Positions 47,108 to 52,045 of a DNA stretch of 64,000 nt are shown here, one piece after another; the stretch's first letter is position 1, and every line of letters begins with the position of its first letter. The stretch is from contig NZ_JACIFH010000001.1 in NCBI RefSeq assembly GCF_014197265.1, forward strand, positions 682,001-746,000, given 5' to 3'. A model generated the notes under the pieces. That model ran no database searches and was not told the origin of the DNA. It saw nothing but the letters and a program-made list of their open reading frames with translations. Position numbers and translations under genes: made by a program. Source of the DNA: Microbacterium invictum (GTDB taxonomy: Bacteria > Actinomycetota > Actinomycetes > Actinomycetales > Microbacteriaceae).

Positions 47108-48421
47108 TCAGAACGACTGCAGGTTGGCTCGGAGCCCGCCGCCGGTGTACTCGGAGCGCAGAATGCCGCGGCGGCGCAGGATGGGGACGAGTTCGTCGAG
47201 CATGCGGTGCACCGTCACCGGGTGCAGGTCGCCCCACAGCAGCACGCCGTCGTTGCCCCACGTGCCGAGTTCCTCGATACGGTCGGCCAGTTCGTCTGCC
47301 GTGCCGACGAAGCCCGATCCGTCGCGCAGCCGGCCCAGCTGGGCATGGGCTGCGAGCAGTTCGCGCAGCGGGGCGTCCGGATCGCTCGTGCCGACCAGTC
47401 GCCGGATGCTGCCGTGCGAGACGTGATCACCGAAGACCGACAGGTCCAAGGGGGAATCCAGGTCGAGCGCCGTCAGGTCGGTCTCCAGGTCGCTGGACTG
47501 CCGTTCGGCGATGTTCCGGAGCGTCGCGTCTGCGGGATGCGCGGAGGCGGCCACGAGACGGTCGGCCTCTTCGGCCGATGAGACCAGCACGGGCTGGATT
47601 GCGAACAGGATCTTGATGTCTTCCGGTGTGCGCCCCTGCGCGCGGGCGGCATCGTGGATCTTCCCGCGGTAGGCGGTGATGCTGGCCTCGTCGAGTGGCG
47701 CCAGCGCGAGTTGCACGTCCGAGTTCGCCCCCGCGAATCCGAGGCCCCGACCCGACCCGCCGGGGGAGACGATCACGGGATCGCCCTGCTCGAACGGCAC
47801 GAAGTTCAGCGGGCCGTCGAACGCGAAGTATTTGCCGCGGTGCACGGTCTCGTGCAGCAGACTGCCGTCCGCATAGCGGCCCCGGGCCGGGTCGGCGATG
47901 AGCGCGTCATCGGGCCAGCTGTGCCAGAGGTCGCGGATGCCGGTGAGCCATTCCTCCGCGCGGTCGTATGCGGCATCGTGGCTCAGCGGGGGCGCGGCGC
48001 CGAAGTGTCGTGCGCTGCCGGTGTCGGTGACCACGTTGAGGCCGAGCCGGCTGCCGCTGAGATGCTGCAGCGTCGCGAACTGCCGCGCGGCCGTGTAGGG
48101 CAGATACGCGGCCGGATTGACGGTCGGGACGACGCCGAGATGCTGGGTCGCCGCGAACAGGTACGGCGCGAGCAGTAGCGGATCGAGCTTGGGACCGCCG
48201 AACGCGTGCCGGACGCGCAGGTCGATCGTCTCGGCCGAGCCGAGCGAGGGCGCGTCCTCGACGATCAGCAGGTCGAACCCGGCCTGCTCGAGCGTGCGCG
48301 CCGAATCCTGATAGAGCCCGGGCCGTGTCCAGGTGTGATTCCACTCCAGGTACGGATGCCCCCAGCCGTGCGGGCCGAAGCCGCGCGCGAGGAACCACCC
48401 GAAGTGCTGCAGCCTGGTCAC
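47108..48421 (-). CDS. LLM-class flavin-dependent monooxygenase (NtaA/DszA-type)
   Basis: 437 aa, start GTG at 48421 overlapping the upstream metY-like stop (GTGA). Bacterial-luciferase-like TIM barrel with PYLFAATQHLGVVPTVNPAAYLPYTAARQFATLQHLSGSRLGLNVVTD and SPGGSGRGLGFAG, as in the NtaA/SnaA/DszA/SoxA group. These FMNH2-using enzymes oxidise amines or cleave C-S bonds of sulfones. The coupling to a sulfhydrylase points to release of sulfur from an organic sulfur compound; the substrate is unknown. Confidence 0.87.
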   Translation of the reverse strand: MTRLQHFGWFLARGFGPHGWGHPYLEWNHTWTRPGLYQDSARTLEQAGFDLLIVEDAPSLGSAETIDLRVRHAFGGPKLDPLLLAPYLFAATQHLGVVPTVNPAAYLPYTAARQFATLQHLSGSRLGLNVVTDTGSARHFGAAPPLSHDAAYDRAEEWLTGIRDLWHSWPDDALIADPARGRYADGSLLHETVHRGKYFAFDGPLNFVPFEQGDPVIVSPGGSGRGLGFAGANSDVQLALAPLDEASITAYRGKIHDAARAQGRTPEDIKILFAIQPVLVSSAEEADRLVAASAHPADATLRNIAERQSSDLETDLTALDLDSPLDLSVFGDHVSHGSIRRLVGTSDPDAPLRELLAAHAQLGRLRDGSGFVGTADELADRIEELGTWGNDGVLLWGDLHPVTVHRMLDELVPILRRRGILRSEYTGGGLRANLQSF

Positions 48422-49740
48422 GCGACCCTCTCATGCTCGACGGTCCGGGGCGCCGCGGTCACGGCATCCAACGCCCGGGACAGGTCCGCGCGCAGATCTG
48501 CGACATCCTCGATCCCGATCGACACCCGCAGCGTACCGGGGTGCACCCCCAGCGCGAGGCGCTCGTCCTCGGTGCGGTGGCTGTGGCTCGTGGATGCCGG
48601 GTGCAGCACGAGCGAGCGCACATCGCCGAGGTGGGTCATGTGCGTGAAGACCTGCACCGACTCGACGACCGTGCGCGCCGCAGGCAGCCCGTCGCGCAGC
48701 GTGAAGGCGAACACCGAGCCGTAGCCGTCCTGCAGGTAGCGGCGTGCGGTGTCGTACGTGGGGTGGGATGCCAGTCCCGCATAGTCGACCGACGCGATGG
48801 CCGGATGTGCTTCGAGCCACCGCGCGAGCGCGAGAGCGTTCTCCGATTGACGCTGGACGCGTAGGCTGAGCGTCTCGATGCCCTGACCGATGAAGAACGC
48901 GTTGAGCGGCGACGGGGTGGGCCCGAACCGCGGCGCGATGCTCTCCCGCAGGTACGCGATGCGCGCGCTGCCGCCGTGCCGCTCCCAGAGGGAGGGGCCG
49001 CCGCCGCGCGGGGGCTCGGTCAACTGCGGGAACAACGCGCCGTCGCGTCCGCCGTCGAAGCGCCCGCTGTCGACGATCACCCCGCCCAGCACCGCACCCT
49101 GTCCGGCGAGGAACTTGCTGGCGGAGTGCACGACCACCGCAGCCCCGTGCGCGATCGGGCGCAGCAGGTAGGGCGTCGCGAAGGTGTTGTCGATGATGAG
49201 GGGGATGCCGTGCTCCTCGCCGACGGCGGCGACCGCCGCGATGTCGAGCACGTCGTTGCGCGCGTTGGCGATCGATTCGGCGAACAGCACACGCGTGGTG
49301 GGCCGGATGGCGGCACGCCACGCTGCCGGATCGCCGATGTCGTCCACGAAGTCGACGGTCACCCCGAACCGGCTGAGATTGTCCAGCAGCAGACCCCGCG
49401 TGCCCTCGTAGATGTGGGTCGAGCTGACCACGTGCTGACCAGCCGAGACGAGACCGAGCAGCGCGACCGCGACGGCGGCCTGCCCACTGGCCAGCAGCAG
49501 CGCCTGCGCGCCGCCCTCGAGCGATGCGAGCTTGTCCTCGACAGCGGTCACGGTGGGGTTGCCGGTGCGGGTGTAGCCGAAGCCGTCGCCGGAGCCGAAG
49601 TGCGACGCCGCGTCGTCGAACGAGTCGAACGTGAAGCCCGCCGTCAGGTGGATCGGCAGCGCGCGCGGGGAGGCCGCCGGGGCGCGCGTGCCGGCGTGCA
49701 CCTGTCGTGTCGTGAACCCACCCGTAGACCCGTCGCCCAC
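48418..49740 (-). CDS. metY: O-acetylhomoserine sulfhydrylase (Cys/Met metabolism PLP enzyme)
   Basis: 440 aa with start GTG at 49740 ([21 protein letters not shown]), behind GGAAGGGGAA; the frame extends further upstream but without a ribosome site. Fold-type I PLP enzyme with [51 protein letters not shown] and the Schiff-base Lys in [13 protein letters not shown]. The length and GFTFDS motif favour O-acetylhomoserine sulfhydrylase over the shorter gamma-synthases. It uses sulfide to make homocysteine, which fits the coupled monooxygenase as a sulfur source. Confidence 0.9.
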
Positions 49741-49877
49741 CGCATCTTCCCCTTCCGGAATCCCGATTCCCCCCAGGCTCTCACGCACCCGCTCACAGGA
49801 CCGTTTCGTGCGTCGGAGTATGACGACGGTTCGCGCGCCCCGAGTGCGGCGCGCGACCGGCATCCCTGGGACGGTGA

Positions 49878-49892
49878 TAATCTGACCGAATG
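49878..49892 (+). promoter_or_regulatory. Leaderless core promoter of the leu leader
   Basis: -10 TAATCT (49878-49883), six bases GACCGA, then ATG at 49890. Confidence 0.65.
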
Positions 49893-49940
49893 CGGATCGC
49901 CCTGCTTCTCCTTAGCGGCCGCGACGAGATCTCGTTCTGA
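49890..49940 (+). CDS. Leucine leader peptide of leuCD
   Basis: 16 residues, [16 protein letters not shown], with four Leu codons in a row (CTG CTT CTC CTT, 49902-49913), two of them CTT, a codon seldom used in this GC-rich genome. It is placed 62 nt before leuC and starts right at its promoter. Such leader peptides measure charged tRNA-Leu: a ribosome slowed at the Leu codons changes the fold of the RNA downstream. The paired segments are listed in the next entry. Confidence 0.8.
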
Positions 49941-49997
49941 GCCCTCTCTCGTCGCGGAGTCCGTCCTGGGCGCCATCCCCTCCACAGGAGAACGAGA
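49919..49997 (+). promoter_or_regulatory. leuCD attenuator: competing RNA pairings
   Basis: Segment A 49919-49929 (CCGCGACGAGA) pairs perfectly with 49947-49957 (TCTCGTCGCGG). Segment B 49930-49938 (TCTCGTTCT), in the loop of that hairpin and at the leader stop, pairs perfectly with 49989-49997 (AGAACGAGA), which covers part of the leuC ribosome site AGGAG (49986-49990). No T-run is seen, so control of translation start is more likely than termination. Confidence 0.6.
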
Positions 49998-50001
49998 CAG
50001 C

Positions 50002-51447
50002 ATGAGCACCACCATTCCCGAACGCCCCCGCACCCTGGCCGAGAAGGTCTGGGACGACCACGTCGTCGTGCGGGGTGAGGACGGTCAGCCCGACCTCATC
50101 TACATCGACCTGCACCTGGTCCACGAGGTCACCAGCCCGCAGGCCTTCGACGGTCTGCGCGCCGAGGGCCGCCCGGTTCGCCGCCTCGATCTGACGATCG
50201 CCACGGAGGACCACAACACTCCGACGCTCGACATCCACAAGCCGATCGCCGACCTCACCAGCCGCACGCAGATCGAGACCCTGCGCCGCAACGCCGAGGA
50301 GTTCGGCGTCCGGCTGCACTCGCTGGGCGACAAGGAGCAGGGCATCGTCCACGTGGTCGGCCCCCAACTCGGCCTCACCATGCCGGGGATCACCGTCGTC
50401 TGCGGCGACTCGCACACTTCGACCCACGGCGCCTTCGGGGCGATGGCCTTCGGTATCGGCACCAGTGAGGTCGAGCACGTCCTGGCGACGCAGACCCTGC
50501 CGCTGAAACCCTTCAAGACCATGGCGATCACCGTCGAGGGCGAGCTGAGGCCCGGCGTGACAGCGAAGGACATCATCCTCGCCGTCATCGCGAAGATCGG
50601 CACCAACGGCGGTCAGGGCTACGTGCTCGAGTACCGCGGCTCCGCCATCCGCACGCTGTCGATGGAGGGGCGCATGACGATGTGCAACATGTCCATCGAG
50701 GCCGGCGCGCGCGCCGGCATGGTCGCCCCTGACGAGATCACCTTCGAGTACGTCAAAGACAAGCCGCATGCGCCCCAGGGCCAGGACTGGGACGACGCGG
50801 TCGCCTATTGGCGCACGCTGCCGTCCGATGAGGGCGCCGTCTACGACGCCGAGGTGTTCCTCGACGCAGGTGAACTCGAGCCGTTCGTCACGTGGGGAAC
50901 CAACCCCGGTCAGGGCGTGTCCCTGTCGGATGTCGTCCCCTCGCCCGACCAGTTCGACGACCCCAATGAGCGCGCCGCCGCCGAGCGCGCCTTGCAGTAC
51001 ATGGATCTGACGCCGGGCACTCCGCTGAAGGACGTGCCGGTGGATGCCGTGTTCATGGGCTCCTGCACCAACAGCCGCATCGAGGATCTACGACAGTTCG
51101 CGTCGATCATCCGCGGACACACGAAGGCCGAAGGCGTGCGTGTCATGGTGGTTCCGGGCTCCGCGCGCGTGCGGCTGGAGGCCGAGGCCGAGGGACTCGA
51201 TAAGGTGATCACCGATTTCGGCGCGGAGTGGCGGTTCGCCGGCTGCTCGATGTGCCTGGGCATGAACCCCGACCAGCTCGCGCCGGGGGAGCGCTGCGCC
51301 TCCACCAGCAACCGCAACTTCGAGGGTCGGCAGGGCAAGGGCGGGCGCACGCACCTCGTGTCGCCGCTCGTGGCAGCCGCCACCGCAGTGCTCGGCCATC
51401 TCGCGAGCCCCAGCGATCTGCAGGTTCTGACCGGGGCGGAGGCCTGA
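50002..51447 (+). CDS. leuC: 3-isopropylmalate dehydratase large subunit
   Basis: 481 aa, start ATG at 50002 behind AGGAG (49986-49990). Aconitase-fold subunit; the [4Fe-4S] ligands are Cys355 (GSCTNSR), Cys415 and Cys418 ([10 protein letters not shown]). Other motifs are EDHNTPT and [28 protein letters not shown]. With LeuD it isomerises 2- to 3-isopropylmalate in leucine synthesis. The upstream Leu-rich leader suggests regulation by leucine supply. leuD follows after 1 bp. Confidence 0.97.
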
Positions 51448-51448
51448 C

Positions 51449-52045
51449 ATGGACAAGTTCACCACGCACACCGGCGTCGCCGCTCCGCTGAAGCGCTCCG
51501 CCGTCGACACCGACCAGATCATCCCGGCCGTCTACCTCAAGCGCGTCACCAAGACCGGCTTCGAGGACGCCCTGTTCTCCAGCTGGCGCCAGGACCCCGA
51601 GTTCGTGCTGAACCAGCCGGCGTTCCAGGGTGCGTCGGTGCTGGTCGCAGGACCGGACTTCGGTACCGGCTCGAGCCGTGAGCACGCCGTATGGGCGCTG
51701 CGCGACTTCGGGTTCAAGGTCGTGCTGAGCCCCCGATTCGCCGACATCTTCCGCGGCAACGCCGGGAAGCAGGGTCTGGTGACCGGTGTCGTCTCCGAGA
51801 CGGACATCGACGCCATCTGGGCGAAGATCGACGCCGAGCCCGGCATCGTGATGACCGTGAGCCTCGAGGACCGCACGGCACGTATCGGTGACCTCCAGGT
51901 GGGTTTCGAGATCGATGATTACACTAGGTGGCGGCTCCTCGAAGGGCTCGACGACATCGGGCTCACACTGCGCAGCGCGGATGAGATCGCTGCGTTCGAG
52001 GCGCGCCGAGAGGCGTGGCGACCCCGGACGATCCCCGTTCCGTAG
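51449..52045 (+). CDS. leuD: 3-isopropylmalate dehydratase small subunit
   Basis: 198 aa, ATG at 51449, one base after leuC. Swivel domain with [37 protein letters not shown] (substrate-binding Ser/Arg) and [23 protein letters not shown]. Length normal. It completes the isopropylmalate isomerase with LeuC. Confidence 0.97.

Follow-up and report, generated by a model that had tools for sequence, protein, structure and literature searches.

The leuCD leader of Microbacterium: almost certainly the LEU element known from actinobacterial leuA, with a probable role in leuC translation

The LEU element was described upstream of actinobacterial leuA as an open reading frame (ORF) with a run of leucine codons, a pseudoknot, and a base stem in which the Leu run pairs with the Shine-Dalgarno sequence (SD) of the gene that follows (Seliverstov et al. 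2005, PMC1262725). Classical attenuation was judged unlikely in that work, which cited leader mutations in leuA of Streptomyces coelicolor, and a binding protein was preferred; the mechanism was left open, and Rho was raised for the cys leaders that lack a terminator. The words leuCD and leuB are absent from the main text of PMC1262725, and literature searches, which covered few subscription papers, found no report of a LEU element at leuC or leuB. In Streptomyces lividans, leuA has the leaderless leader leuL1, which reads MRFGLLLLSCRGEGL*, and the authors list leucine leaders at leuS and leuA only, as far as the accessible part of the paper goes (PMC8079986). The ilvB-II attenuator of Corynebacterium has an upstream ORF in which the ribosome reads codons for the end product, and its motif is described, in the accessible part of the source, as a terminator stem followed by a U-run (PMC10272879). 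The leuCD operon itself is assigned a protein regulator, NdgR/LtbR, whose gene lies beside leuC (PMC4340878, accessible part).

The locus studied here lies in a 64,000-nt stretch of the Microbacterium invictum genome (the window; contig 1, positions 682001-746000), and all parts of the leader and the operon are on its forward strand. The leuC gene (50002..51447, 481 aa, large subunit of 3-isopropylmalate dehydratase; NCBIfam TIGR00170, 736.7 bits) begins with the ATG at 50002 and is directly followed by leuD (51449..52045, small subunit; NCBIfam TIGR00171, 184.9 bits). Upstream of the leuC SD region, AGGAGAA (49986..49992), there is a leaderless leader ORF of 16 codons (49890..49940) with four consecutive, presumed regulatory Leu codons, CTG CTT CTC CTT (49902..49913), and the letters and coordinates given in the initial annotation of this DNA proved right; a -10-like hexamer, TAATCT (49878..49883), ends 6 nt upstream of the leader ATG. 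The segment TTCTCCT (49906-49912) within the Leu codons is complementary to 49986-49992. The 5' arm of a hairpin (49919..49929) lies within the leader ORF and shows perfect 11-bp complementarity to the 3' arm (49947..49957), so that the hairpin stops about 45 nt short of the leuC ATG. The hairpin loop contains the last codons of the leader (the tail, 49930..49938), perfectly complementary over 9 bp to 49989-49997, and the 5' strand of a pseudoknot, GCCC (49941..49944), the 3' strand of which is GGGC (49968..49971).

A scan of 49740-50100 revealed no terminator-like site, as the initial annotation had noted in reporting the lack of a T-run, and a classical transcription attenuator was rejected because no intrinsic terminator opposed to an antiterminator was found in this interval. 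A simple sigma-70 consensus scan gave no promoter match at the leader. Rfam 15 covariance models produced two matches in 48500-51000 at E values up to 10, both below the gathering threshold and outside the element, and none at the gathering threshold at eight leuA or leuB loci. The folding energy of the single window sequence is unremarkable (z of -1.14, uninformative); the evidence for the element is comparative. The divergent neighbour of leuC (48418-49863, reverse strand) resembles an O-acetylhomoserine/O-acetylserine sulfhydrylase, with scores under the NCBIfam cut-offs (473 v 703 and 455 v 495 bits).

A search for leuC gave a match in 149 of 149 Microbacterium genomes, and 130 leuC loci were fetched from 128 of them, the main locus of the other 21 genomes being left out. 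The element is present at 128 of these loci, one per genome, and thus at the main leuC locus of every genome fetched; the two loci without it (L054 and L130) are additional leuC copies, and the other copy in each of these genomes carries it. Exact matches to a stretch of the leuC element in named genomes, from which records of the window's own genome may have been excluded, all fall in Microbacterium or in Microbacteriaceae without a genus name (40 of 40). All 128 element-bearing loci have a start codon in frame with the Leu codons and then a stop, i.e. the leader ORF first proposed from the window alone is conserved in relatives. A TAnnnT motif precedes the in-frame start in all 127 usable leaders, at a gap of 6 nt (108 leaders) or 7 nt (19), the start codon being GTG in 78 and ATG in 49. 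Because of this spacing the ORF fits a leaderless transcript, and we infer that the transcript begins with the start codon of the leader and that ribosomes translate this ORF. Its stop codon lies inside the hairpin loop in 127 of the 128 genus leaders as parsed, as well as in all 26 other leuC elements of the family, 65 leuA and 12 leuB elements that were parsed. Parsing of the hairpin failed for L214 and L295.

Most genus leaders contain three Leu codons and a few contain two, while the window leader has four. CTC and CTT are decoded by one tRNA (GAG anticodon), and together they make up 386 of the 393 Leu codons of the genus leaders. CTT alone accounts for 229 of them; in genes this codon is scarce, as had been claimed earlier: six window genes use it for just 2 of their 228 Leu codons.

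The RNA structure was examined in sets from which identical sequences had been merged. In an alignment of 111 distinct genus sequences, the hairpin pairs are formed in 94.7% of cells and three pairs have changed on both sides, with 7 of the 11 pairs invariant. In a wider set of 100 model matches (genus, family, order and class), whose alignment was fitted to the hairpin and so favours it, and which includes two weak coding matches, the hairpin is paired in 97.6% of cells; six pairs covary and 65 cells carry changes in both partners, a level reached by 0 of 500 shuffles, and slid versions of the pairing score far lower.

In the pseudoknot, the hairpin loop pairs with a stretch 3' of the hairpin; the helix of the window has 4 bp (49941-49944/49968-49971), and the partners found among the sequences include TGAGCCC/GGGCTTG, AGGCCT/GGGCCT, GTCAGCC/GGCTGAC, GGGC/GCCC and others. 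A MAFFT-based pair count gave 83.3% of cells paired, with 58 'other' cells in one pair; because MAFFT leaves the AGGCCT loops misaligned with the GAGCCC loops by one column, an anchored swap test was used. In this test, which ignores the relatedness of the sequences, true partners scored above swapped ones in the genus leuC set (13.21 v 12.75), in leuA (15.27 v 13.46) and in leuB elements (17.96 v 13.56), each with 0 of 200 swaps as high. The family leuC set (23 distinct sequences) gave no significant difference (11.09 v 10.78, 34/200), and without anchoring there was no signal in either the genus set (75/200) or the family leuC set (34/200). Covariation thus supports the predicted hairpin and pseudoknot. 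Of the two pairings drawn in the initial annotation, the 11-bp hairpin is confirmed both in its complementarity and by covariation; the pairing of the tail with the ribosome site is discussed below.

Since it combines the Leu-run ORF and pseudoknot of the published element with homology to leuA leaders, the leuC leader is almost certainly a LEU element. A search model (R1) based on the leuC leaders of the genus scored 99.8 bits at leuC of the window's genome, 76.9 bits at a second leader and 18.4 bits at the next match. The second leader (G000:C1:906756-906845, outside the window; positions 957-1046 of L134) reads MRFSGLLLSCRDESSF* and lies directly before leuA, as identified by NCBIfam, and the model derived from leuC leaders also recovers leuA leaders. 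With the element of PMC1262725 the leuC leader shares the Leu-run ORF (128 of 128 element-bearing genus loci), the pseudoknot (by covariation, although the family leuC set alone gave 34/200), and the fact that no terminator is reported. Its Leu run, too, is complementary to the SD downstream; as to a base stem, the match reaches at least 5 bp in 100 of 113 genus leaders and masking frees the SD on average, though not in the window, where the pairing probability is 0.05. It differs in preceding leuC instead of leuA, and we take gene position as descriptive of a LEU element, not as defining it. As far as the accessible parts of these sources go, leuL1 is likewise leaderless and without a typical Rho-independent terminator but precedes leuA (PMC8079986), and the ilvB-II leader is read by the ribosome, as proposed for the leuC leader, but possesses a terminator, of which the scan at leuC showed no sign (PMC10272879). 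What appears new is the location at leuC; the class of element was already known from leuA (PMC1262725).

The model matched 144 of 150 genomes of the family, 79 of 119 of the order and 175 of 197 of the class; the order and class draws include genomes of the family itself, to which 9 of the 175 class matches belong. Among 29 loci examined, the gene at the match is leuA in 23 and leuC in 6. Among 88 loci classified, all but 17 have leuA or leuC at the match, and these 17 comprise 14 leuB loci, two weak matches of 34.0 and 32.5 bits that fall within coding sequence, and one locus (L202) that ends near a contig edge, so that its gene is not readable. The 14 leuB loci belong to other actinobacterial families (L210, L216, L221, L222, L227, L228, L230, L232, L234, L236, L237, L240, L241 and L243; leuB of L222 was also identified by NCBIfam). 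Their elements are situated about 130-650 nt upstream of leuB, with ilvE as the next gene in 10 of 14, and the leaders read carry codons for Val, Leu and Ile where the leuA and leuC leaders have a Leu run, e.g. MRSVFVLIDCRGEA*. These putative leuB leaders are a branched-chain version of the element.

An element at leuC was seen only in the Microbacteriaceae, where it is present in 15 of 30 genera; 28 leuC loci, each from a different family outside this one, all lack it. The genomes compared were hand-picked, 30 within the family (one per genus) and 30 outside it (one per family), two of the outside genomes being without a real leuC; the second copies fetched were also hand-picked. A possible decayed element (14.7 bits) occurs before leuC in one genus (L294, 1363-1454). 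In several Microbacteriaceae (L376, L377, L381, L382, L383, L384 and L385) a third element lies before another leuA-type gene, the second in the genome, which shares 55-57% identity with leuA; the third match per genome was accordingly rejected as a new location, since it precedes such a gene in 7 of 25 loci. Weak matches in L245 (34.0 bits), L246 (32.5 bits) and L386 (28.5 bits) are coding sequence.

The copies at leuC and leuA intermingle in a mostly unresolved tree of the elements (55 rows, 89 columns); at least 2 switches are forced by well-supported branches and 10 by parsimony, and a single origin does not emerge from it. Because such element trees are too short, the transfer cannot be dated. 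In one genome (G159), the leuC and leuA copies are 93% identical.

The LtbR/NdgR system exerts leucine-linked control of the leuCD operon, as the leuC element would; it is a DNA-binding IclR protein encoded beside leuC, unlike the RNA leader (PMC4340878, PMC8222616, in their accessible parts). A divergent IclR-type gene adjoins leuC in other families (read in L261, and by position in 10 genomes). With the L261 protein as query, named LtbR from its position and the literature (its NCBIfam matches are IclR relatives below the cut-off), all 10 genomes tested from other families gave an orthologue of 70-79% identity beside leuC, and none of 50 Microbacteriaceae genomes did, the best match there (38%) belonging to ordinary IclR relatives. 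In the genomes tested, the element thus occurs at leuC only where LtbR is missing, and the RNA element probably took over control of leuCD in those lineages of the family that lack LtbR/NdgR. It is no necessary replacement, because 15 of the 30 hand-picked family genera have neither.

The conserved Leu leader and RNA structure, together with the lack of a terminator, point to translational control by stalling, and we consider it fairly probable that the LEU element before leuCD controls leuC translation in this way. When leucine is ample, ribosomes would run to the leader stop, and between their passes the run of Leu codons (or other local pairings) would close the leuC site and keep leuC expression low. 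Under a shortage of charged tRNA-Leu, a ribosome would halt on the CTY codons and cover the Leu run; the downstream hairpin and pseudoknot could stay folded, the leuC site would open, and leuC would be translated.

In 100 of the 113 distinct genus leaders, Leu run and SD can form at least 5 bp. The mean run of 5.87 exceeds the 5.72 obtained with swapped SDs (reached by 0 of 100 swaps, relatedness again ignored), and the duplex energy is nearly the same as in swaps (-10.43 v -10.26, sd 0.13). The excess is small, and any CTCCT run resembles an anti-SD.

The effect of a ribosome was modelled for 123 distinct leaders (L075, which was misparsed, left out) with pseudoknot-free folding and crude ribosome footprints. 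The mean probability that the leuC SD is unpaired was 0.159 in free RNA. A ribosome placed at the first Leu codon raised it to 0.423 (an increase in 109 leaders and a decrease in 5), one at the last Leu codon to 0.391 and one at the stop to 0.253. Masking the Leu codons alone gave 0.439, and masks of equal length gave 0.184 when placed upstream, 0.171 within the loop and 0.140 downstream of the hairpin. When synonymous Leu codons were drawn by usage, the value rose to 0.341, above that of the real codons in 111 of 123 leaders, and therefore Leu codon choice, on average, keeps the leuC site shut in the model. On average over these 123 relatives, the Leu codons themselves would close the leuC site, and masking them would free the SD.

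The window leader is an exception and speaks against the stalling model: in this fold model its own sequence shows no masking effect. Its SD is unpaired at 0.354 in free RNA and 0.360 with the Leu codons masked; a ribosome on the first Leu codon gives 0.373, and one on the last gives 0.254. The SD pairs mainly (0.55) with 49958-49984, with UCCUG (49964-49968) in the lowest-energy fold, and with the Leu run at only 0.05, a value taken from region totals. In the RNA of the window, the leuC site would thus be closed mainly by the stretch just upstream of it. The S. coelicolor leuA leader mutations, which reportedly misfit classical attenuation (PMC1262725), are a further point against stalling, as is the distance of the leuB elements from their gene.

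Control of transcription is the alternative that survives best, though we regard it as rather unlikely. A stalled or terminating ribosome would here alter the access of Rho, or the pausing of RNA polymerase at the hairpin and pseudoknot, and so change the amount of leuC mRNA. The leuB elements fit this idea, since at about 130-650 nt they cannot simply mask the SD of leuB itself, and so does the suggestion of Rho for the terminator-less cys leaders (PMC1262725). Against it, 49740-50100 shows no T-run terminator. The hairpin also ends some 45 nt ahead of the leuC ATG, and Leu run and SD match over at least 5 bp in 100 of 113 leaders, features for which a switch acting on transcription alone would have no need.

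Slightly less likely still is that a regulatory protein binds the element, the reading favoured for leuA in 2005, with the ORF secondary. The letters of the hairpin arms are very strongly conserved (7 of 11 pairs invariant in 111 genus sequences), and changes of leader codons were reportedly without effect in S. coelicolor (PMC1262725). The arm is doubly constrained, however, because it is also coding (GRDE); the in-frame start, Leu codons and stop are retained in all 128 leaders, 386 of 393 Leu codons are CTT or CTC, and the Val, Leu and Ile codons of the leuB versions fit codon reading.

The initial annotation had proposed a different closing element, in which the leader tail (49930-49938) covers the leuC site (49989-49997) in competition with the hairpin; this we consider improbable. 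The perfect 9 bp are present as letters in the window, and the tail is found in 14 of the 16 leaders that have a matching site. Within the genus, tail type goes with site type (Fisher p 1.7e-5, relatedness ignored), and among 113 distinct leaders the duplex energy is slightly better than in swaps (-7.58 v -7.29, sd 0.16). On the other hand, the 8-bp form occurs in only 14 of 128 genus leaders: the tail is present in 48 and the matching site in 16, so that 34 of 48 tail-bearers lack a matching site. The mean run in the 113 leaders equals that of swapped partners (4.62 v 4.61), and in the RNA of the window the predicted probability of the tail helix is 0.000 because the hairpin (0.988) wins; the helix as drawn is not supported. 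Control of translation by leucine-dependent stalling, as originally suggested, thus retains its conserved leader, RNA structure and lack of a terminator, and loses the tail as its closing element; the pseudoknot, the pairing of Leu codons with the SD in many relatives, and the known LEU element at leuA had been overlooked. That the element is a leftover of a copied leuA leader and no longer has a function is very unlikely: 15 of 30 hand-picked family genera manage without it and L294 resembles a decayed copy, but it is retained, with compensatory changes, in 128 of 128 Microbacterium genomes.

In the translational reading preferred here, we tentatively see the LEU element as a portable, ribosome-read module that has spread along the actinobacterial leucine pathway, with its CTY sensing codons doubling as an anti-SD strand. 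It might serve leuA throughout the class, leuCD in Microbacteriaceae without LtbR, and a second leuA-type gene in some of these, a reading that is conceivable but less than probable. Elsewhere it may have been placed before leuB (often leuB-ilvE), with Val, Leu and Ile codons replacing the Leu run, a suggestion that we offer with similar reserve. If the module reading is true, one stretch of RNA would be sensor and lock at once. Further leucine genes are now linked to the poorly understood leuA element of 2005, and its copies at leuA, leuC and leuB, with their differing codons, make the mechanism of the LEU element directly testable. For the Microbacteriaceae, leuCD offers a natural example of an operon that carries an RNA switch and lacks the protein regulator.
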